Shown piece by piece: positions 21,856-33,128 of a DNA stretch of 64,000 nt. Below the pieces are notes generated by a model. It searched no databases, was not told the origin of the DNA, and saw nothing but the letters and a program-made list of their open reading frames with translations. The number at the start of each line of letters is the position of its first letter. Positions within the stretch are counted from its first letter, which is position 1. Source of the DNA: Poseidonibacter parvus (lineage in GTDB: Bacteria; Campylobacterota; Campylobacteria; Campylobacterales; Arcobacteraceae); the NCBI RefSeq assembly GCF_001956695.1, contig NZ_CP019070.1, positions 558,001 to 622,000 on the forward strand, read 5' to 3'. The position numbers and the translations under genes are program-made.

Positions 21856-22200
21856 ATGGATTGGGGTAAAGTAACATATATATTTTTCTCACTAATGTCT
21901 CTTACAACTACAGCTGGGTTTTTATATGAACAAAATGAAATAGCATTATTCATAGCAGCAGGTGTAAATGTAATATCAACAGTTTTAAAACTTGGTGTTA
22001 AAAACTTATTAGCAGCAGAATTACTAGCAAGTTCATTAGTAGCAGATTTACATCTAATTCCAGCATTTATGGTATTAACTTTTATGAATGATATATCTTT
22101 AGCAATTTCATTAGCTATTGGTGCAGTTGTTGCAAATATTTTCTCAATAGCCTTAGCATTAATAGAAAGCGCAAAAAGTCAAGACAAGGAAGAATTTTAA
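21856..22200 (+). CDS. DUF6394-like small membrane protein
   Basis: A 114-residue hydrophobic protein (three or four helices, including [20 protein letters not shown] and [21 protein letters not shown]). It resembles the small Campylobacterota family annotated as DUF6394; I make this match from memory and with moderate confidence. The ATG follows an AAGGA site by 7 bases. The stop overlaps the leuS start by one base (TAATGG), so it is translationally coupled to leuS. Its function is unknown. Confidence 0.7.
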
Positions 22201-24665
22201 TGGAATACAGTGCAAAAGCAATTGAAGATAAATGGCAAAAATTTTGGAGCGAAAATAAATCTTTCGAACCAGAAGATGATAAAAGTAAAGAAAAAAAATA
22301 TATCTTAAGTATGTTTCCCTACCCAAGTGGACGGATTCACATGGGGCATGTTAGAAACTACTGTTTAGGTGATGCTTTTGCTAGACACTTTAGAAAATCT
22401 GATTTTAACGTTTTACATCCAATTGGTTGGGATAGTTTTGGAATGCCAGCTGAAAATGCAGCAATAAAACATAAGTCACATCCTAAAAAATGGACTTATG
22501 AAAATATTGATTATATGAAAGATGAGTTAAAAGGTTTAGGTTTATCTTTCTCTGAAACTAGAGAGTTTGCTACTTCTGATGAGTTATATACAAAATGGGA
22601 ACAAGAATTCATCATAAAAATGTATGAAGAAGAGTTATTATATAGAAAATCTACAACAGTTAATTGGTGTGAACCTTGTCATACAGTTTTAGCAAATGAA
22701 CAAGTAGAAGAAGGATGTTGTTGGAGATGTGACACACCTGTTGAGCAAAAAGAAATGCCAGGATATTATATTGGTATTACAAAATATGCACAAGAATTAC
22801 TTGATGATTTAGATGGACTAAAAGACACATGGCCTTCACAAGTTTTAACAATGCAAGAAAATTGGATTGGGAGAAGTGAAGGTTTAGAGTTTAAATTTGA
22901 ATTATCTATTGATGCAAAAAATAAATTAAATAGATCTTTTTCTAAATATTTAGTATTTACAACTAGACCTGATACAATTTATGGAATTTCATATTCAGCA
23001 CTTGCACCAGAACATCCAATTGTTAAGTATATTTTAGAACATAAGTTGTTACCTGAGAAAAAACTTCAAGCAATTAAAGATATGCAAAAAGTAAGTGAAA
23101 GAGATAGAGCAACACAAAATAAAGCTGGAGTATCATTAGAAATTGATGTAATGCATCCTTTAACTGGTGAAACAATTCCTGTATGGGTTGCAAACTTTGT
23201 TTTAGCTTCTTATGGTGGAGGTGCAGTAATGGCTGTTCCTGCTCATGATCAAAGAGACTTTGAATTTGCAAAACAATATGATTTACCAATAAAACAAGTA
23301 ATTGTAGGAAGTGATGGTTTAATCGAAAATCAAACAGAAGCTTATGTCTTTGAAGGTGAATTAATTAATTCTGAAAGTTTTACAGGATTAAAAAATACAA
23401 AAGCTAAAAAAGCTATAACTTACCATTTTGAGCAAAATTCATTAGGTATAAAAAAAGTTAATTTCAAATTAAGAGATTGGGGAATTTCAAGACAAAGATA
23501 TTGGGGAGCTCCTATTCCATTTGTTCATTGTGATTCTTGTGGATTAGTTCCTGAAAAAAGTGAGAACTTACCAATTGCATTACCTGAAGATGTAGAAATT
23601 ACAGGTGAGGGTAATCCTTTAGATACTCATCCTACATGGAAATATACATCTTGTCCTAAATGTGGAAAAGATGCTACAAGAGAAACTGATACTTTAGATA
23701 CCTTTGTACAATCATCATGGTATTTCTTAAGATATGCAACAAATCCTAAAAAATGGAATGAAGAAGGTATTTCAAAAGAAGATAGTGATTACTGGATGGA
23801 TGTAGATCAATATATTGGTGGAATTGAACATGCAATTTTACACCTTTTATATGCAAGATTCTTTACAAAAGCACTTAATTCTTTAGGATATACAAACTCA
23901 AAAGAACCCTTTAAAAAACTTCTTACACAAGGTATGGTTTTAAAAGATGGTGCTAAGATGTCAAAATCTAAAGGAAATGTAGTTGATCCTGATTTAATTG
24001 TTAAAAACTATGGTGCTGATACTGCAAGATTATTTATGATGTTCGCTGCACCTCCAACTAAAGAATTAGAGTGGAATGATTCAGCAGTTGAAGGAGCATT
24101 TAGATTTATTAAAAAGTTCTTTGAACGTGCTTCAAATGTTACTCAAGTTGGAGTAGATGGTTTTAAAAATATTAATCATAATGATTTAAGTAAAGATGAA
24201 AAAAATGCTAGAAAAAAAGTATATGAAGCTTTACAAAAATCTAATGAAGTATTTAATAAAACATACACATTTAATACTTTAATAGCTTCATCAATGGAAG
24301 CTTTAAATGCCTTATCATCACAAAAAAATGAGCTTGTTTGGACAGAAGGGTATTATATATTATCTAATATTTTAGAGCCTATTATTCCTCATGCTTGTTG
24401 GGAAATATCTAATTCATTATTTAAAAAAGAGAATTTCAATAATACTTTAGAAGTAAAAGAAGAAGTTTTCCAAATGGATTCAATAAATTTAGCTGTTACT
24501 ATTAATGGTAAGAAAAGATGTGAAATTGAAGTTGAACCAAATGCCTCAAAAGAAGATATTTTAGCTCTTGCAAAAGAAAATTCACAAAAATGGATTGAAG
24601 GTAAAGAAATTATAAAAGAAATCGTAGTACCTAATAAATTAGTAAACTTAGTAATCAAAGGATAA
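22200..24665 (+). CDS. leuS: Leucyl-tRNA synthetase
   Basis: Class I synthetase for tRNA-Leu, 821 residues. It shows the HIGH-type motif ([15 protein letters not shown]), a zinc-like CxxC pair near NWCEPCHTV, the CP1 editing domain ([10 protein letters not shown]) and the KMSKS motif ([16 protein letters not shown]). The gene order leuS-lptE-folC-M23 peptidase-bactofilin matches the arrangement I recall from H. pylori and, in part, C. jejuni. It is coupled by a one-base overlap to the upstream small membrane protein. Confidence 0.98.
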
Positions 24666-24672
24666 TTAAAGT

Positions 24673-25218
24673 ATGAAAAGTATAAATAATATTAAAAAAG
24701 TGCTATTTGTACTTTTAACTTTAAGCCTTTGTTTTTTTACTCTTAATGGCTGCGGATATAAGCCTACAGTTTCTTATGCGAAAAAAGAATTAGCAGGAAA
24801 AGTATTTGTGAATTTATTTGTTAATATAAAAGACCCAAGAAATTCTGTTTTAATAAAAGATTCAATGAACCAATTATTAGTACAAAAATTAGGGGCTAAA
24901 TTAGTTTATGATGAAGCACAAGCTGATACTGTTATGAACTTAAAAATAAATTCAGTTGATATGTCTGTTTTACAATATGATAGTGAAGGATATAATCAAC
25001 TTTACAGAGCTAGTGTAAATATTTTAGTAAGTTATACTAAAAAAGAGAAAAATATCCCAACAACATTTACTGTTAGTGGAGAAAATGATTTCTCAGTTGG
25101 TGATGACGACGATGATACTATTACTGATACAATTAGATTTGAAGCGATTAAAGAAGCTTCAGATGATGCTTTAGATGAAGTATTATCAAAAATTGCAGTA
25201 GCTTCATTTAGAAAATAA
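24673..25218 (+). CDS. lptE: LptE-like LPS-assembly lipoprotein
   Basis: A 181-residue lipoprotein with an N-terminal signal ending in the lipobox LNGC (Cys near residue 27), so it is anchored in the outer membrane. Sequence similarity across LptE proteins is low. The assignment rests on its size, its GYKP start after the lipobox and its place between leuS and folC, as in other Campylobacterota. LptE plugs the LptD barrel in lipopolysaccharide export. It carries an acidic GDDDDDTITD stretch. It starts 8 bases after leuS. Confidence 0.78.
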   Translation: MKSINNIKKVLFVLLTLSLCFFTLNGCGYKPTVSYAKKELAGKVFVNLFVNIKDPRNSVLIKDSMNQLLVQKLGAKLVYDEAQADTVMNLKINSVDMSVLQYDSEGYNQLYRASVNILVSYTKKEKNIPTTFTVSGENDFSVGDDDDDTITDTIRFEAIKEASDDALDEVLSKIAVASFRK

Positions 25219-25221
25219 TTA

Positions 25222-26391
25222 ATGAATCTTGATTTAAAAAAAGCTTCATTATCACAATTTTTAGAGTTTAAAACTCTTTATTATGACAAGATTGATTTTA
25301 CAACAGTAAAATCTTCTTGGGAAATGCTATCTAAAAAAATTAATCTACCTTTTGTAATTCATCTTGTTGGAACAAATGGAAAAGGAAGTACAGGAAGGTT
25401 TTTAGCTCACTATTTGAATAAAAGTAATTACAAGGTTTTACATTATAGCTCTCCACATATTATTAAATTAAATGAACGAATTTGGATTAATGGTAGCGAT
25501 GTAAATGATTTTGATTTAGAAGAAGCACATCAATTTTTACAAGAGTTATATCCTTTAGATTTATTAGAAAAACTTACTTATTTTGAGTATCTTACACTTT
25601 TATCGTTTTATTTATCAAAAAATTGTGATTATCTTGTACTTGAAGCTGGTTTAGGTGGTGAGTTTGATGCTACAAATGTAGTTAAAAATGATTTATCTTT
25701 AATAACTACAATTGATTTAGACCATCAAAGCTTTTTAGGAAATACTGTAGAAGAAATAGCTGAAACTAAAATGCGTTCAGTTGATAAAAAAATGCTAATT
25801 GGGTACCAACTTCATGATAGTGTAAAACAAAGTGCACAAAAAGTAAAAGAACAAATATTAAAAGAAAGAAATATAAATATTGAAATCGACTATGTAGAAA
25901 ACTTTGAAAAATATTCTTTAGATAAAAAGTTTGCAACTTATTTAAAACGTAATTTACATCTAGTAATCAAATGTTTAGAAGAGCTAAAGATTCCTCTTAA
26001 TTTAGATTTTTTTGATGATGTTGAACTTTTTGGAAGATGTCAGAAAATTAGAAAAAATATAACTATTGATGTAGGGCATAATCCTCTTGCTGCAAAAGTT
26101 TTAAAAGAAGAATTTAAAGATAAAAAAATTACATTGATATATAATTCATATGCAGATAAAGATTATGAAGAAGTTTTAAGAATATTAAAACCAATAATAA
26201 ATAAAATAATTATAATTGAACTTGATGATAAAAGGATTGTTCCTAAAAATAATTTATTAAAAATTATAGATAAATTGAATATAATAAATGAAGAAATAAT
26301 TGAAATTAATGATAATGAAGAGTATTTAGTCTTTGGTTCATTTTTAGTTGTTGAAAAATTCTTATATTTGATTGGGATAAATGAAAAATAG
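25222..26391 (+). CDS. folC: Folylpolyglutamate / dihydrofolate synthase
   Basis: Mur-ligase-type enzyme that adds glutamate to dihydropteroate or folates. The ATP-binding loop HLVGTNGKGSTGRFLAHYL (about residues 46-64) is diagnostic, followed by LHYSSPH, LEAGLGGEFDATNV and, in the C-terminal domain, TIDVGHNPLAA. The 389-residue length is slightly below average. The 3' end overlaps the next gene by 11 bases, so the two are co-transcribed. Confidence 0.94.
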   Translation: MNLDLKKASLSQFLEFKTLYYDKIDFTTVKSSWEMLSKKINLPFVIHLVGTNGKGSTGRFLAHYLNKSNYKVLHYSSPHIIKLNERIWINGSDVNDFDLEEAHQFLQELYPLDLLEKLTYFEYLTLLSFYLSKNCDYLVLEAGLGGEFDATNVVKNDLSLITTIDLDHQSFLGNTVEEIAETKMRSVDKKMLIGYQLHDSVKQSAQKVKEQILKERNINIEIDYVENFEKYSLDKKFATYLKRNLHLVIKCLEELKIPLNLDFFDDVELFGRCQKIRKNITIDVGHNPLAAKVLKEEFKDKKITLIYNSYADKDYEEVLRILKPIINKIIIIELDDKRIVPKNNLLKIIDKLNIINEEIIEINDNEEYLVFGSFLVVEKFLYLIGINEK

Positions 26392-27283
26392 ATTAATAAT
26401 TACTGTTTCAGATATAAAAGGAACAAAGTCTTATAATATACATCAGCTATTGAAAAAAGTTCTGGTTTCTGTAATATTAATTGTTTTATTAGTATTAGCT
26501 TGTAGTTTTTGGTTTATATCGTATTTAGATAATGAAGTCACAAGTGTTAAAAAAAATAAAGAAATAGAATTTAAAATATTAAATGAAAAAGAAGAAAAAC
26601 TTCTTGCTCAAAATAAACTTTATTCAATACAAATAAAAAGTAAAATTAATGATATTGATGAATTAAATCAAAAACTTGATGAAATTCACACAATTATTGG
26701 AGTTGGCAAAAATGCAACTAAAGATGAAATTAGTAAAAAAACTTTGTCTGCAATTAATCTTAAAAAGAAAAAATATACTTTAAGAGTAATTCCAAATGGT
26801 AAACCACTTGATAAAATTAAGGTTTCTTCAAACTTTGGTTATAGAATAAATCCAATAACAAAAAGAAAACAATTTCATCGCGGTATTGATTTAGCAGCTC
26901 CTAGAAAAACGCCAATCCGTGCTACTGCTGATGGAATAGTAGAACATGTGCAAAGTAAAAATGTAGGAGATTATGGTAGAGTTATAAAAGTAAGCCATAA
27001 TTATGGATTTAAGACTACTTTTGCTCATATGCATAAAACTTATGTTAAAGTTGGTGAAATAGTAAAGAAAGGCCAAATTATAGGTCTAGTAGGTAGTTCA
27101 GGTAGGAGCTCAGGTCCACATTTACATTATGAAATTAGATATGCAAGTACATTACTTAGTCCAAAAAATTTTATAAATTGGAATCTTAATACGTATGAGA
27201 GTATTTTCAAAAAAGAAAGGAAAGTTGAATGGGAGTCTTTAATAAATCTGATAAAGGATCAACACCCAATGGAGCTACTGTAA
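26381..27283 (+). CDS. M23-family (LytM) peptidoglycan endopeptidase, Csd1/Pgp3-like
   Basis: A 300-residue periplasmic peptidase anchored by an N-terminal helix (about residues 27-49), followed by a coiled coil (about 50-105) and a LytM domain. Zinc ligands are visible in HRGIDLA (HxxxD) and HLHYE (HxH). It is probably a D,D-endopeptidase that trims peptidoglycan cross-links, as Csd1 of H. pylori and Pgp3 of C. jejuni do to set helical cell shape. The bactofilin gene follows and overlaps it by 55 bases, matching the csd1-ccmA pairing of Helicobacter. Only one M23 gene is present here, whereas I recall two in tandem in H. pylori. Confidence 0.88.
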   Translation: MKNRLIITVSDIKGTKSYNIHQLLKKVLVSVILIVLLVLACSFWFISYLDNEVTSVKKNKEIEFKILNEKEEKLLAQNKLYSIQIKSKINDIDELNQKLDEIHTIIGVGKNATKDEISKKTLSAINLKKKKYTLRVIPNGKPLDKIKVSSNFGYRINPITKRKQFHRGIDLAAPRKTPIRATADGIVEHVQSKNVGDYGRVIKVSHNYGFKTTFAHMHKTYVKVGEIVKKGQIIGLVGSSGRSSGPHLHYEIRYASTLLSPKNFINWNLNTYESIFKKERKVEWESLINLIKDQHPMELL

Positions 27284-27666
27284 TAGCTCAAGGAACATGT
27301 ATTATTGGTGGTATTAATACAAAAGGTACAGTTCATATTGATGGAAAGTTTGAAGGTGTTATTTTAGAAGCTGATGTAATTTCAATAGGTCTTACAGGTG
27401 AAGTTATTGGAGATATAAAAGCAAATAATTTAGTAGTAAATGGTCTGTTTGATGGAAAAATTGATTGCAATATTGTTCAAATTTTAGCAGAAGGAAAAGT
27501 AATTGGTGATATGCAATATAATGAACTAATTATAGAATCTAATGGAAAGTTTGAAGGAAGAGGAATTAGAAAGAATTCTGATTTAAAAAGTCGATACAAT
27601 GAAGTTGAGCAAAAGATTAATAATATTATTGTTTCACCTTCTGCAATAGCTCATGACAAGTCTTGA
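27229..27666 (+). CDS. ccmA: Bactofilin (CcmA-like cell shape protein)
   Basis: A 145-residue polymer-forming cytoskeletal protein. The central beta-helix repeats (VHIDGKFEGVI, DVISIGLTGEVIGDIKANN, LVVNGLFDGKI) are typical bactofilin. In Helicobacter CcmA organises the Csd peptidases for helical shape, so the neighbouring M23 peptidase is a likely functional partner. The start at 27229 lies inside the peptidase gene, with an AAAGGA-like site at 27213-27220, giving a 55-base overlap. It also overlaps the next gene by 14 bases. Confidence 0.93.
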   Translation: MGVFNKSDKGSTPNGATVIAQGTCIIGGINTKGTVHIDGKFEGVILEADVISIGLTGEVIGDIKANNLVVNGLFDGKIDCNIVQILAEGKVIGDMQYNELIIESNGKFEGRGIRKNSDLKSRYNEVEQKINNIIVSPSAIAHDKS

Positions 27667-29776
27667 AAAAAAACTAGAAGATCTTTATTTACAAAAAGAA
27701 AATATTGACGTACAGATTAAAGAACTTGAAGATAAAATAAAAAGTGAAAAAACTAAAAAATCATCAAAAACTACATTTTCAAAACTTGAAAAAATAGATA
27801 TATTTAAATCACTATTTATTGCACGTTTTGATATTTATGCAAAAAAATGGATTTCTAAGGATGGAAATAAACAAGGGTTTTATCCTGTTACACAAACCTT
27901 TCAAGGTGAAGATTTTATACCTATTACAAATAAAGAAATAGAAGCACATTTAAGAGGTTTACTACATCTTGCAACTTATTGTATTGATTCAAATAATTTA
28001 TCAAAATTTATTGCTTTTGAAATTTTAGATGAAGATAAATTTAAACTTCAAATTGCTTTGAACTCTCTAAATATTAGAGCTTATTATGAATTAAATACTT
28101 ATAATTCTTTAGTAGCATGGATATTTTTAGAAGAAGCAATAGATAGTAAAATTGTTTATAATTTTGCTTCATATATTTTAAAAAAAGCAAATATAAATGC
28201 AAAAACATACCCAAATCAAGAATTCTCAAATAAATCAAATTTAGGTAATTGCATTGAAATTCCTTTGCATTTAAAAAATAGAGAAAAGAATAAAACTATT
28301 TTTATTGATGCAAACACAAATAAAATATATGAAGACCAATGGGTAGTTTTAAATAATGTTCAAAAAGTTTCAAAACAAATTATTTATAATAACACACAAA
28401 CAAGTTCAAGTTTAAATGAAGAAAAAGATTTTGGGAATATTGATTTTCCACTTGATTGTATAGATATGGTTTCATATGATTATTTATATATTCCAACTGC
28501 AAAGTTGTCAAAAAGTTTAATTAATAAATTGAAATCTTTTGCATCTTTTGAAAATCCTCAAATAAAAGTATTATTGGCTTTACGAAAGCCTTTGTACAAT
28601 ACTCCACGACTTATACAAAGCTTTGAAGAAGATAACACTCACTTAATGCTTCCAAGAGGTTTACAATCGAAAGTTTGTGATTTTTTTACTTCAAATGCAG
28701 TGTCTTTTAATGTTGAAAATAAAAGATATTTTAACTCATGTGAAACTAAAAAAGTGCAATTTACTTTAAGACCAGAACAAAATGATGCTATAAACCAGAT
28801 TTTGAAAAATGATTTTTGTATTTGTGTTGCACCTCCAGGTTTTGGTAAAACTTTACTTGGTGCGAAAATGTTTGAAAAAAGAGCTTGTTCAACTTTAATA
28901 GTAGTTAATAAAAATATGCTCTTAAATCAATGGATAGAAAGATTTGTTGATTATTTTGGATATGACAAAAAAGATATAGGATACCTTGGAAAAAGCCAAA
29001 ATAAATTAAATGGAATTATTGATGTTGCAACAATGCAAAGTTTAAAAAATAATCCAGATTATATACATAATTATTCTTTTGTAATTGTTGATGAATGTCA
29101 TCATATACCAGCTCTTACTTTTGAGCAAATAATCAAAAAATTTAGAGGGAAATATATTTTAGGTTTAAGTGCAACTCCTAATAGAAAAGATGGGTTACAG
29201 CCAATTTTATATCAACAATTAGGAAATGTTGCCTATGAATATAAAAAGAAAAGAACACATACAAATAAACTTGAAGTTGTAAGAACAGATTTTATTTGTC
29301 AAGCTGATAATTATGCAAGTATAATAAATGAACTTTGTATTGATGAAAATAGAAATAATTTAATAATTGATGCAATAAAGAACAATATTAATAGAAAAAT
29401 TTTACTTTTAACTGATAGAATAGAGCATATAAATATTCTAGAGCATTTATTGATGTGTGAGAATATTGATTATGTAAGTATACATGGAAGTCAAAATAAA
29501 AAAGAACAAGTTAAAAATATGAATTTAGTAAAACAAAAATCTTTGATTCTTGCTACTACTTCTTATTTTGGTGAAGGAATTGATTTCCCTCATTTAAATA
29601 CTATTCTTTTTGCAACGCCAATTTCATATTATGGAAGGTTAGTTCAATATCTAGGACGAATAGGAAGAGGAAATCAAGAGTGTTTAGCTATTGATTTTTT
29701 AGATTCAAATAATGCAATGCTTAATTCAGCTTTCAAAAAAAGAGCTGAAGGTTATAAGCAAATGCATTACAAATAA
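27653..29776 (+). CDS. Primase-helicase fusion (TOTE-type AEP-like domain plus SF2 helicase)
   Basis: A 707-residue protein. A charged coiled coil (1-45) is followed by a region (about 48-250) that aligns with the archaeo-eukaryotic primase domain of TOTE conflict-type proteins: SLFIARFDIYAKKW, EAHLRGLLHLATY, WIFLEEAIDS, NLGNCIEIPL and DQWVVLNN. A superfamily 2 helicase follows: TLRPEQNDAI, Walker A PGFGKTLLG (about residue 393), DECHH (about 479), LSATPNRKDG and QYLGRIGRG. In the primase half the catalytic acidic pair (usually DFD) reads FEIL near residue 121. The usual SGNGxHVW reads TYNSLVAW, and the Cys-rich zinc element is absent. The helicase looks active, the primase does not. The function is unknown; it overlaps ccmA by 14 bases. 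Confidence 0.8.
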   Translation: MTSLEKKLEDLYLQKENIDVQIKELEDKIKSEKTKKSSKTTFSKLEKIDIFKSLFIARFDIYAKKWISKDGNKQGFYPVTQTFQGEDFIPITNKEIEAHLRGLLHLATYCIDSNNLSKFIAFEILDEDKFKLQIALNSLNIRAYYELNTYNSLVAWIFLEEAIDSKIVYNFASYILKKANINAKTYPNQEFSNKSNLGNCIEIPLHLKNREKNKTIFIDANTNKIYEDQWVVLNNVQKVSKQIIYNNTQTSSSLNEEKDFGNIDFPLDCIDMVSYDYLYIPTAKLSKSLINKLKSFASFENPQIKVLLALRKPLYNTPRLIQSFEEDNTHLMLPRGLQSKVCDFFTSNAVSFNVENKRYFNSCETKKVQFTLRPEQNDAINQILKNDFCICVAPPGFGKTLLGAKMFEKRACSTLIVVNKNMLLNQWIERFVDYFGYDKKDIGYLGKSQNKLNGIIDVATMQSLKNNPDYIHNYSFVIVDECHHIPALTFEQIIKKFRGKYILGLSATPNRKDGLQPILYQQLGNVAYEYKKKRTHTNKLEVVRTDFICQADNYASIINELCIDENRNNLIIDAIKNNINRKILLLTDRIEHINILEHLLMCENIDYVSIHGSQNKKEQVKNMNLVKQKSLILATTSYFGEGIDFPHLNTILFATPISYYGRLVQYLGRIGRGNQECLAIDFLDSNNAMLNSAFKKRAEGYKQMHYK

Positions 29777-29793: not shown

Positions 29794-31407
29794 ATGTTAG
29801 GAATAATTGTTGCGACAATATTTATTGCATTAGTAATAAATTTAATTTTAAAAAAATTTCAATTACCCACTATTATAGGTTATATTATCACAGGGACTAT
29901 CATTGCTTACTCTTTTAATTTACACGATGCTGTAAATAATCATGATTTAAAAGAAATAGCAGAGTTTGGGGTAGTATTTTTAATGTTTACAATTGGATTA
30001 GAATTCTCAATTGAACATTTAAAAAAGATGAAAAAAGAGGTTTTCTTCACAGGTTCTTTGCAGATTATTCTTACAACAATTTTTGTTTTTTTAGTGTCTC
30101 ATTACGCAATTGGTTTAGATGTTAAATCTTCAATGGTAATAGGTGCTGCACTTTCTTTATCTTCAACTGCAATTGTTTTAAAAACCTTTAATGAAACAAA
30201 AGAGATTAAAAAACCTTATGGAAAAAGAGTTCTTGGTATTTTAATTATGCAAGACATTGCTGTAATTCCTATTTTATTAATGATATCATTTTTCACAATG
30301 GGTGAAGAAAGTAGTGTTGCATATATGATTTTTGAAACACTTATTGCTGCTGTTGTATTATTAGGCTTATTGTTTTTATCAGGTAAATATTTGCTTGAGC
30401 CTTTTTTAACACATGTATCAAAAACAAAGTCTGATGAATTATTCGTGGCTTCTGTTTTACTTCTAGCAATTGGATCATCATACTTAGCTTACTATTTCGG
30501 TTTTTCATACTCACTTGGTGCATTTATCGCAGGTATGATGATTGCAGAAACAAAATTTAAACATCAAGTGGAAGCTGACCTTATTCCTTTTAGAAATATT
30601 TTATTAGGTGTGTTTTTTATAACAGTTGGAATGCAAATTAATTTTACAGTAATTTCAGATTATATTTTAATTATTCTTGTTTTACTTCCGGTTTTAATGG
30701 GTCTTAAATATCTAATTATTTATTCATTAGTTAGGCTTGATGATACAAGAAGAGTTGCTTTTAAAACAGCATTCTCACTAATTCAAATAGGAGAGTTTTC
30801 TTTAGCAATTTTAGAATTAGGAAGAAGCCAAGGTTTAGTTGATCCAACATATTCACAAATTTTAATTGTAACTATAGTAATTTCTATGATATTAACACCT
30901 ATAATTCTAAAAAACCTATCAAAAGCAGCAGGATTATTAATAAGCGAAGATCCTTTAGTTGTAAATACTACATACAATATTGATAAAGATACAGAAAACC
31001 ATGTTGTTGTTTTAGGATATGGAAGATATGGACAAGCAATTGTTGAAGAGCTTAAATCTTTAGGTCAAAAATATATTATTATTGAGCATAATGTACAGTT
31101 TTTCCAACTTGGACAAGATAGGAAAGAACCAATTGTATTTGGAAATGCAGCGCAAAGACATATTTTAACATCTGTAAATGTTACTAGTTCATCAGCTGTA
31201 ATTGTTGCAGTTAATAATCCTGAAGCCTTACATTTAATTTGTGAAGCAGTTGATTCTTTAACACATAATACAAAAACAATCGTTACAGTTACAACAGAGA
31301 GTGAAAAAGAGACTTTAGAAAGTTTACATTTACAACATATTGTAGTTGAAACTAAGCATTTATCAAAAGCAGTTGTTGATGAAGTTATGTATTGTAGACT
31401 TGATTAG
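29794..31407 (+). CDS. CPA2-family cation:proton antiporter with TrkA-N domain
   Basis: A 537-residue Kef-like monovalent cation/proton antiporter. The first ~385 residues form about 12 membrane helices with family blocks FGVVFLMFTIGLEFS, ALSLSSTAIVLK and SLGAFIAGMMIAET. The C-terminal cytoplasmic RCK domain has the Rossmann motif VVLGYGRYGQAIVEEL. It probably moves K+ or Na+ in exchange for protons, gated by nucleotide. An AAAGGAG site precedes the ATG. A hairpin over its stop codon separates it from the convergent acyltransferase gene. Confidence 0.9.
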   Translation: MLGIIVATIFIALVINLILKKFQLPTIIGYIITGTIIAYSFNLHDAVNNHDLKEIAEFGVVFLMFTIGLEFSIEHLKKMKKEVFFTGSLQIILTTIFVFLVSHYAIGLDVKSSMVIGAALSLSSTAIVLKTFNETKEIKKPYGKRVLGILIMQDIAVIPILLMISFFTMGEESSVAYMIFETLIAAVVLLGLLFLSGKYLLEPFLTHVSKTKSDELFVASVLLLAIGSSYLAYYFGFSYSLGAFIAGMMIAETKFKHQVEADLIPFRNILLGVFFITVGMQINFTVISDYILIILVLLPVLMGLKYLIIYSLVRLDDTRRVAFKTAFSLIQIGEFSLAILELGRSQGLVDPTYSQILIVTIVISMILTPIILKNLSKAAGLLISEDPLVVNTTYNIDKDTENHVVVLGYGRYGQAIVEELKSLGQKYIIIEHNVQFFQLGQDRKEPIVFGNAAQRHILTSVNVTSSSAVIVAVNNPEALHLICEAVDSLTHNTKTIVTVTTESEKETLESLHLQHIVVETKHLSKAVVDEVMYCRLD

Positions 31408-31428
31408 ATAGAGAGTTATTCTCTATCT
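31406..31428. terminator. Hairpin spanning both convergent stop codons
   Basis: A 9-bp perfect stem (31406-31414 with 31420-31428) with a 5-base loop. It overlaps the antiporter stop (31405-31407) and the acyltransferase stop (31416-31418). A T-rich tail follows on the plus strand (ATATCTTTTT), but none is clear on the minus strand. Confidence 0.55.
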
Positions 31429-33128
31429 ATATATCTTTTTCTTGGAGCATTTTTAATTTTATTTACATTTACTAAAATAAAACCATCAACACAATCTGCA
31501 AAATCTTGATCTACATTAAAACCTAAAAATTTTACACCACCTTCTTCAGTGATTTCACTGTATTGTTTGTATAAAGTTGGAACAGAAACTCCCATCCCTA
31601 AAAGAGTAGATTTTAAAAATTTAAAATCTTTTTTCTTATCATCTAAGCAAAATAGCCCTTTAATCTCATTTATATTATTTGAATATTGATAAGGAAGTTT
31701 AGGACTTACTAATTGTTTTGGCTCTTTGAAATAATGTGAATAATAGAATATCATCATATCTTTTGCAATACTTGGAAAACTTGCACTAATACTTACAGGA
31801 CCAAACATATACTTAATATTTGGATTCTTTTTTAAATAAGCTCCAATTCCATACCATAAATAATCAAGTGCTCTCGTACCCCAGTATTTTGGTTGAACAA
31901 AACTACGTCCAAGTTCAATAGAGTTTTTTAAATATGGAGTTAACCCTTCATTATATTTAAATAAAGTATTTGAATAAAAACCTTTTACTCCAATATTCTT
32001 AAAGATAAAATTAGCATTACCAATTCGATATGAACCTACAATTTCTAAGTCATTCTCATCCCAAAGAATAATATGTTGATAATATATATCATATTTATCA
32101 GTATCTCTTTTTTTATTTATACCTTCGCCAACTTTCCTAAAAGATAGCTCTCTTAATCGTCCTAGTTCTTTTAATACAATTGAATCATCTGAGTAATCAT
32201 ATAGATATATTTTTTTCCCATCATTTGTCTCTCCAATTAATTGAGAAGATTTTAATTCATTAATTAGATCTTGTCTTTTTTGAGGATGTGCAATTGCACT
32301 TTGTGTTTGGAAAAAACTCTTTTTTCTTTTTTTTAGTGAGTATAAATGTTTTTTATAAAGATTAATTAAATATTTTTTATCTAAGCCTTTTGGTTTAATA
32401 TTTTCATTTGGAATAATTTCTCCAATTTTAATATTTATTCTTTTTGACTTTTTATTAAACATCTCATTTGAAAGTAAGAGTGTTGAAAAAGTTTTATTTA
32501 TTAGAGAAATAGTATAAAATGTTTTAGAGTTTTTTGCATCTAAAAATATTGGTAGAATTGGAGAGTTTGAATTTTGTGCGAAATTTAAAAAGCCTTTACT
32601 CCATGAAGGATCTTTTATTCCTTTTCCACTAGCACGACTTACTTCACCTGCTGGAAAAATAATGATTGCTTCTTCATTTTTTAGAGCTTCATATATCTTT
32701 TTTATGTCTTTTTTTGATTGTCTAATTTTATAATTATCAATTGGAATTAAAAGATTATTTAAAGCATCAAAACCTACAAGAAAATCATTGGCTACTATTT
32801 TTACATCTGATCTTACTTGAGAAATCAATCTTAGTAAACAAAGGGCATCTAAACCTCCTAAAGGATGGTTTGCAATAATCACTACTTTTCCTGAACTTGG
32901 AATATTTTGTAAATCTGTACTTGAAACATTATAATCAAAATCGAAATAATCTAATACGCAATCAACAAACTCAAGCCCTTTTAAATGTGAGTTTTCTTTT
33001 AAAAATTTGTTTATAGAGTCTTCATGGACTATTCTTTTAGCAATTTTAAATAGAGATTTTTTTAAGAAGTCTTGTTTCTTGTTTATATTTGGAAACTTCT
33101 TTTCTATTTCTTTTTGTACATCTATCAT
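31416..33128 (-). CDS. Two-domain acyltransferase, OlsF-like (PlsC-type plus GNAT-type)
   Basis: A 570-residue protein with two acyltransferase domains. The N-terminal half is PlsC/hemolysin-like: IANHPLGGLDAL carries the H(x4)D catalytic motif, and FPAGEVSR is the second conserved block. The C-terminal half (about 305-570) resembles the GNAT-type N-acyltransferases of the OlsB/hemolysin group (ELGRLRELSFRKVGEG, ELGRSFVQPKYWGTRAL, GPVSISASFP). This order is that of OlsF, which makes ornithine lipids by N- then O-acylation in one protein. The amino acid acylated here is not known. An AAGGA site precedes the ATG at 33128. Confidence 0.75.
   Translation of the reverse strand: MIDVQKEIEKKFPNINKKQDFLKKSLFKIAKRIVHEDSINKFLKENSHLKGLEFVDCVLDYFDFDYNVSSTDLQNIPSSGKVVIIANHPLGGLDALCLLRLISQVRSDVKIVANDFLVGFDALNNLLIPIDNYKIRQSKKDIKKIYEALKNEEAIIIFPAGEVSRASGKGIKDPSWSKGFLNFAQNSNSPILPIFLDAKNSKTFYTISLINKTFSTLLLSNEMFNKKSKRINIKIGEIIPNENIKPKGLDKKYLINLYKKHLYSLKKRKKSFFQTQSAIAHPQKRQDLINELKSSQLIGETNDGKKIYLYDYSDDSIVLKELGRLRELSFRKVGEGINKKRDTDKYDIYYQHIILWDENDLEIVGSYRIGNANFIFKNIGVKGFYSNTLFKYNEGLTPYLKNSIELGRSFVQPKYWGTRALDYLWYGIGAYLKKNPNIKYMFGPVSISASFPSIAKDMMIFYYSHYFKEPKQLVSPKLPYQYSNNINEIKGLFCLDDKKKDFKFLKSTLLGMGVSVPTLYKQYSEITEEGGVKFLGFNVDQDFADCVDGFILVNVNKIKNAPRKRYIDRE

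Follow-up and report, generated by a model that had tools for sequence, protein, structure and literature searches.

A TOTE-type primase-helicase with a degenerate primase domain, apparently domesticated in a conserved operon of the Arcobacteraceae

The window, a stretch of 64,000 nucleotides from Poseidonibacter parvus, contains an open reading frame for a protein in which an AEP-TOTE domain precedes an SF2 helicase core. The features of this fusion protein and the genes around it are collected in Table 1; some of the neighbour-gene names were assigned by inspection of the sequence. Further downstream come an acyltransferase-like gene, encoded on the opposite strand, and a DUF445-like gene.

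Table 1. Features of the fusion gene and its neighbours (positions in the window)
Feature	Positions	Strand	Basis
leuS	22200..24665	+	sequence and conserved order
lptE	24673..25218	+	neighbour annotation
folC	25222..26391	+	directly upstream of the fusion gene in relatives without M23-ccmA
M23 peptidase	26381..27283	+	upstream neighbour
ccmA bactofilin	27229..27666	+	14 bp overlap with the fusion gene
AEP-TOTE / XPB-like SF2 helicase fusion, 707 aa	27653..29776	+	ORF, Pfam, AlphaFold model, fold search
Long N-terminal helix, residues 3-37, predicted coiled coil	27659..27763	+	AlphaFold model
AEP-TOTE domain, residues 46-245, catalytically degenerate by its residues	27788..28387	+	Pfam 2.1e-50; AlphaFold pLDDT 89; Z 24 to CAPP
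Motif I remnant E123-I124-L125 (F122 before; ancestral DxD)	28019..28027	+	residue alignment to CAPP D177/D179
Motif II remnant NTYNSLVAW (intact homologs SKSGNGIHIW; His to V154)	28094..28120	+	residue alignment
Motif III Asp219, retained (TIFID)	28307..28309	+	residue alignment
Linker domain, residues 270-369	28460..28759	+	inside the region kept by AEP-less orthologs (start ~residue 270)
SF2 helicase core, XPB/RadD-like, residues 370-707	28760..29773	+	Pfam, sequence and fold matches
Walker A APPGFGKT, residues 393-400, intact	28829..28852	+	ortholog alignment
DEAH-box type motif DECHH, residues 480-484, intact	29090..29104	+	ortholog alignment
Motif VI QYLGRIGR, residues 665-672, intact	29645..29668	+	ortholog alignment
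KefB/C-like cation:proton antiporter	29794..31407	+	downstream neighbour

The TOTE-type AEP/helicase architecture is already known, and its assignment to this gene in a preliminary description was borne out by the Pfam matches. AEP-TOTE (PF22548) scored 171.9 bits against a gathering cut-off of 27, and the helicase part was matched by ResIII (E 3.8e-24) and Helicase_C (E 4.9e-14). PF08966, the N-terminal domain of DUF1882, was not among the Pfam matches of the protein. The AEP part was also matched by the PrimPol models of PADLOC (PrimPol profile, E 1.8e-29) and by the NCBIfam CAPP model, the latter with a score far under its cut-off. The NCBIfam equivalog cut-offs for XPB (610 bits) and RadD (720 bits) were not reached, the protein scoring 60.6 and 53.2 bits, respectively. 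The helicase motifs, previously read as intact, are indeed so; APPGFGKT, DECHH, SATP and QYLGRIGR are invariant or nearly invariant across 76 orthologs. The protein has the architecture of a TOTE AEP-helicase, PF22548 joined to an SF2 helicase with intact motifs, but has neither its catalytic motifs I and II nor its mobile and partner-gene context. That TOTE systems act in defence is assumed here from Pfam naming and genomic context.

The AlphaFold model of the AEP part alone gave its best matches to CAPP structures, with rmsd values of 2.0-2.3 over ~195 residues and a Foldseek E of 3e-14, followed by HP0184 (2atz; Z 13.5) and then by Prim-PolC and LigD polymerase domains (Z 11-12). The full-length model best matched archaeal and eukaryotic XPB and then RadD. 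Because its confidence is modest (pLDDT 75, pTM 0.46), the relative arrangement of the two domains is left out of the interpretation.

Three motifs define the AEP superfamily: motif I (hhhDhD/E) and motif III (hD/E), which bind metal, and motif II (sxH), which binds the nucleotide (PMC5862659; PMC10345425). In the alignment to MpCAPP, E123 fell on D177 and L125 on D179, with loss of the carboxylate at the latter, while D219 fell on the motif III Asp; single side chains were placed by sequence alignment inside the matched fold. This agrees with the earlier reading that DxD had become ExL and that the active-site His segment had become TYNSLVAW, V154 standing in place of the His; the retained motif III Asp had not been mentioned. 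The metal-binding triad is left in canonical form only at this Asp. Structure- and alignment-based comparison found no substitute acidic residue or pair for motif I, nor was a complete acidic triad found elsewhere in residues 48-250 when the AEP domain was superposed on CAPP. Since the fold matches CAPP and the catalytic residues are gone, it was concluded that the fold has been kept and the residues for catalysis lost.

Motifs were counted across 72 full-length orthologs aligned with 25 intact homologs (24 from Campylobacterota and one from Desulfobacterales). The DxD of motif I was found in none of the orthologs and in all of the intact homologs, which argues that the substitutions are not a quirk of one sequence. 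Position 123 was E, K or Q in the orthologs (E in 64), and position 125 was L, N, S, A, T, I, V or P, that is, neutral in all 72. The motif II His was kept by only three orthologs (L035, L036 and L041), as against 25 of 25 intact homologs, and 63 of 72 had an acid (D or E) at position 219. MpCAPP (D177A/D179A; PMC8211822) and PolpTN2 (PMC5862659) both lose their activity when the two motif I aspartates are changed. The loss of motif I is thus strong evidence, at the level of residues, for a dead primase, and by residue criteria the primase is dead, as the preliminary description had supposed. Loss of the motif II His alone would be no proof of inactivity, since some active AEP families lack that His (PMC5862659). 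The absence of a Cys-rich zinc element, also reported earlier, was confirmed, but its reading as a sign of degeneration was rejected: the element is absent from every intact Campylobacterota homolog covering that segment, and its absence is therefore not degeneracy. The Desulfobacterales relative (L124) does have the element.

The survey of Arcobacteraceae that had been proposed as a check showed that both the gene and its degeneracy are conserved. An ortholog was found in 92 of 104 genomes (80 of the 88 of good quality), the exceptions being genera g4, g7, g9 and g20 and some incomplete genomes. None of 39 genomes of other families in the order gave a match at 1e-60; a separate search with the Pfam model recovered intact-type copies from other families. 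The gene order in the family is nearly always leuS-lptE-folC-(M23-ccmA)-fusion gene-(kefB)-acyltransferase-DUF445. No ligase or nuclease partner genes were found at the locus, in line with the earlier account, and the gene is fixed in this housekeeping operon across the family.

The AEP domain is dispensable in some lineages. Orthologs of genera g6, g11 and g13 are ~475 aa long and start at about residue 270, so that linker and helicase are kept and the AEP domain is gone, and genus g2 has a 650 aa form that lacks ~30 residues of the N-terminal AEP part. The AEP-less genes remain in place, following ccmA in L042 and preceding DUF445 in L165 and L166. In a tree built on helicase residues 285-707, the orthologs and the intact Campylobacterota copies were sister groups (support 100), and the AEP-less forms clustered together (97) inside the ortholog group. 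Support at the base of that group was only 69, and a single origin consequently rests mainly on the shared synteny. That one clade kept only linker and helicase shows the XPB/RadD-like motor to be the functional core. Sequencing error or a pseudogene was considered and rejected, as the frame is open in nearly all orthologs and dN/dS is low. The exceptions are a low-quality assembly with many stops (G035), some assemblies in which the gene is split, and the ortholog L023 (G027), whose AEP part is interrupted by an in-frame TAG and whose helicase part is open (523 aa).

Selection was measured as NG86 dN/dS, pooled over 16 close pairs of orthologs that are near neighbours on the tree. The values were 0.098 for the AEP domain (95% 0.084-0.112), 0.088 for its former active-site segments, 0.089 for the linker and 0.063 for the helicase; in intact homologs the AEP and helicase values were similar, mostly about 0.05-0.10. 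From these values the dead AEP domain was deduced to be under strong, slightly relaxed purifying selection. The relaxation is uneven along the protein. Positions at least 90% conserved were about equally frequent in the helicase of orthologs (57%) and intact homologs (54%), and made up 47% vs 57% of the N-terminal alpha/beta half of the AEP domain (residues 44-111) and 16% vs 54% of its RRM-like catalytic half (residues 112-245), falling to 7-8% in the orthologs around motifs I and II. Some positions, E97, R101, K184 and E202 among them, are at least 90% fixed in the orthologs and hold other residues in the intact homologs, a pattern that suggests a new constraint.

Taken together, the domestication of a TOTE-type primase-helicase in the Arcobacteraceae is well supported, and the protein is probably a domesticated helicase for genome maintenance in which the dead AEP domain is kept as a DNA- or nucleotide-binding module. 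A TOTE-type primase-polymerase/helicase would have passed from a mobile, defence-associated pool into the chromosome of the Arcobacteraceae ancestor, behind folC-(M23-ccmA). The AEP active site was lost early, motif I being gone in every sampled lineage and the motif II His left in three orthologs, and the fully conserved ATPase motor is the working core. Most likely the protein would use ATP to translocate on DNA or to unwind it, in repair or in fork or bubble processing; the role in repair is suggested by its helicase relatives. The dead AEP domain may play an auxiliary part, holding or sensing a DNA end, a primer-template junction or a nucleotide and positioning the motor. Retained binding is proposed because the N-terminal half is conserved and because DNA binding by AEPs is thought to be metal independent; the motifs by which CAPP binds DNA have their analogues in the N-terminal DNA-binding motifs of human PrimPol (PMC10345425). 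The g2 form, which lacks part of the N-terminal half, counts against the AEP domain as a binding module.

The first alternative is that the AEP domain is a passive relic, kept for folding and slowly being lost, and that the helicase alone matters. Its dN/dS is somewhat higher than that of the helicase, one clade has lost it entirely and one ortholog has a nonsense codon within it, all of which would fit. However, a dN/dS of 0.10 lies well below the neutral value, the former active-site region is no less constrained, and the positions fixed in the orthologs but held by other residues in the intact homologs suggest new constraint. A passive relic is accordingly considered unlikely, although it retains some weight.

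The intact relatives bear on the proposed origin. Homologs with intact motifs, ~44% identical to the fusion protein, occur on plasmids of Arcobacteraceae, and AbiEi/AbiEii genes adjoin the intact copy in Sulfurospirillum (L107), on an Arcobacteraceae chromosome (L163) and on two plasmids (L167 and L168). The AbiE pair lies at 4471-5993 in L107, 5653-7175 in L163 and 7346-8868 in L167, and it may form a functional partnership with the intact TOTE-type gene in Campylobacterota. Two other intact copies (L116 and L119) have neighbours other than AbiE. Both forms were present in one genome in four cases (G373, G387, G444 and G447), from which it follows that domesticated and mobile forms coexist as distinct lineages. 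On an Aliarcobacter faecis plasmid (L086; G373:C2) the intact-type homolog is split into two ORFs and apparently broken; unlike this copy, the degenerate ortholog on the chromosome of the same genome is whole. One genome (L055 and L123; G014:C6) carries an AEP-less ortholog together with a shortened intact-type copy matching query residues 331-706 only. Neither an IMG/VR scan nor a phage tblastn turned up relatives that would indicate a viral source, and the donor is consequently placed no further than the plasmid and chromosomal mobile copies.

These data fit the earlier suggestion that a defence-type protein was adopted for a cellular role. They might also be taken to mean that the protein continues to act in defence and lies in a conserved operon by chance, given that its closest active relatives are mobile and lie beside AbiE genes and that the PADLOC PrimPol profile matches it. 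This is held to be decidedly improbable, since the gene is near-universal and syntenic in the family, as opposed to the patchy presence typical of defence genes, and since the partner genes are absent and the active site is lost. As a domesticated gene it offers a traceable case in which a mobile, defence-associated primase-helicase became a resident cellular gene while active relatives are still found on plasmids of the same genera. The combination of active-site loss, retention of the other half and loss of the domain in one clade makes the usefulness of a dead primase directly testable.

A role in cell shape or envelope control, exerted jointly with ccmA and the M23 peptidase, could be read from the overlap with ccmA, which is as first described and is paralleled by overlaps of 14-26 bp that are common in relatives. 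Many genomes nevertheless lack M23-ccmA, and the fusion gene then stands right behind folC and overlaps it, which ties the gene to the operon rather than to ccmA. The link to ccmA itself is thereby weakened, and such a role is regarded as very improbable. It is hardly credible that the domain has stayed active as a polymerase or nucleotidyltransferase through an unusual metal site built from E123, D219 and another acid close by, for instance D128: although E123 and an acid at position 219 recur in most orthologs (64 and 63 of 72), position 125 is neutral throughout, 69 of 72 have lost motif II, the lineages vary freely at the positions concerned, D128 was rejected as a motif I replacement because it is conserved to the same degree in the intact homologs, and CAPP and PolpTN2 are inactive with both motif I aspartates changed (PMC8211822; PMC5862659).

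A side lead concerns DUF1882 (H. pylori HP0184), which has been described as an AEP subfamily and placed among AEP structures that include nucleotide-bound ones (PMC8065100). It matches PF22548 weakly (loci L095 4656-5198, L099 4778-5320 and L100 3741-4241) and was present in 163 of 200 sampled Campylobacterota genomes, while PF08966 was found in none of 104 Arcobacteraceae genomes. In these three loci of other Campylobacterota, DUF1882 lies between glyA and a SPOR gene. In the window genome glyA directly adjoins the SPOR-domain gene at a distance of 41 bp, with no DUF1882 between them (L179 3238-3280, or about 873738-873780 of G000:C1). This genome has two glyA genes, at 873782-875017 and 31051-32286 of G000:C1, each 76% identical to the same query. 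There is a slim chance that Campylobacterota need a noncatalytic AEP, supplied mostly by DUF1882, and that in Arcobacteraceae the TOTE-type helicase with its dead AEP took over DNA or nucleotide sensing. The mirror-image distribution of DUF1882 and the fusion gene is striking, yet it amounts to one evolutionary contrast.

In the open-access literature searched, a family-wide, catalytically dead, domesticated TOTE-type form was not found, and the protein was compared with four known systems. The intact TOTE-type fusions (PF22548 + ResIII + Helicase_C), such as those of Aliarcobacter cibarius pACIB and Arcobacter cloacae pACLO, have the same full-length domain order and share with it the ~44% identity, the helicase motifs and a counterpart of the long N-terminal helix (residues 3-37). 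They keep DxD and SGNGIHIW, whereas the Arcobacteraceae ortholog has neither, and those examined lie on plasmids, near AbiE genes or in other variable contexts, whereas the ortholog is chromosomal, syntenic and near-universal. DUF1882 resembles the fusion protein in having an AEP-like fold without DxD and in belonging to a Campylobacterota housekeeping operon (glyA-DUF1882-SPOR), but it is a standalone protein of ~180 aa without a helicase and occurs, in the sampled genomes, only outside Arcobacteraceae. CAPP (7nqd, 7nqe, 7nqf and 7p9j) shares the AEP fold (Z 24, rmsd 2.0 over 195 residues) but is catalytically active and is found in a CRISPR context with other partners, TPR in the solved one. 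For the helicase, XPB/Rad25 and RadD are the best matches by both sequence and fold; unlike these, the fusion protein lacks a Bax1 or TFIIH partner, falls under the NCBIfam equivalog cut-offs and carries an AEP domain. Where XPB has its RED motif, the helicase part has R-K-D.
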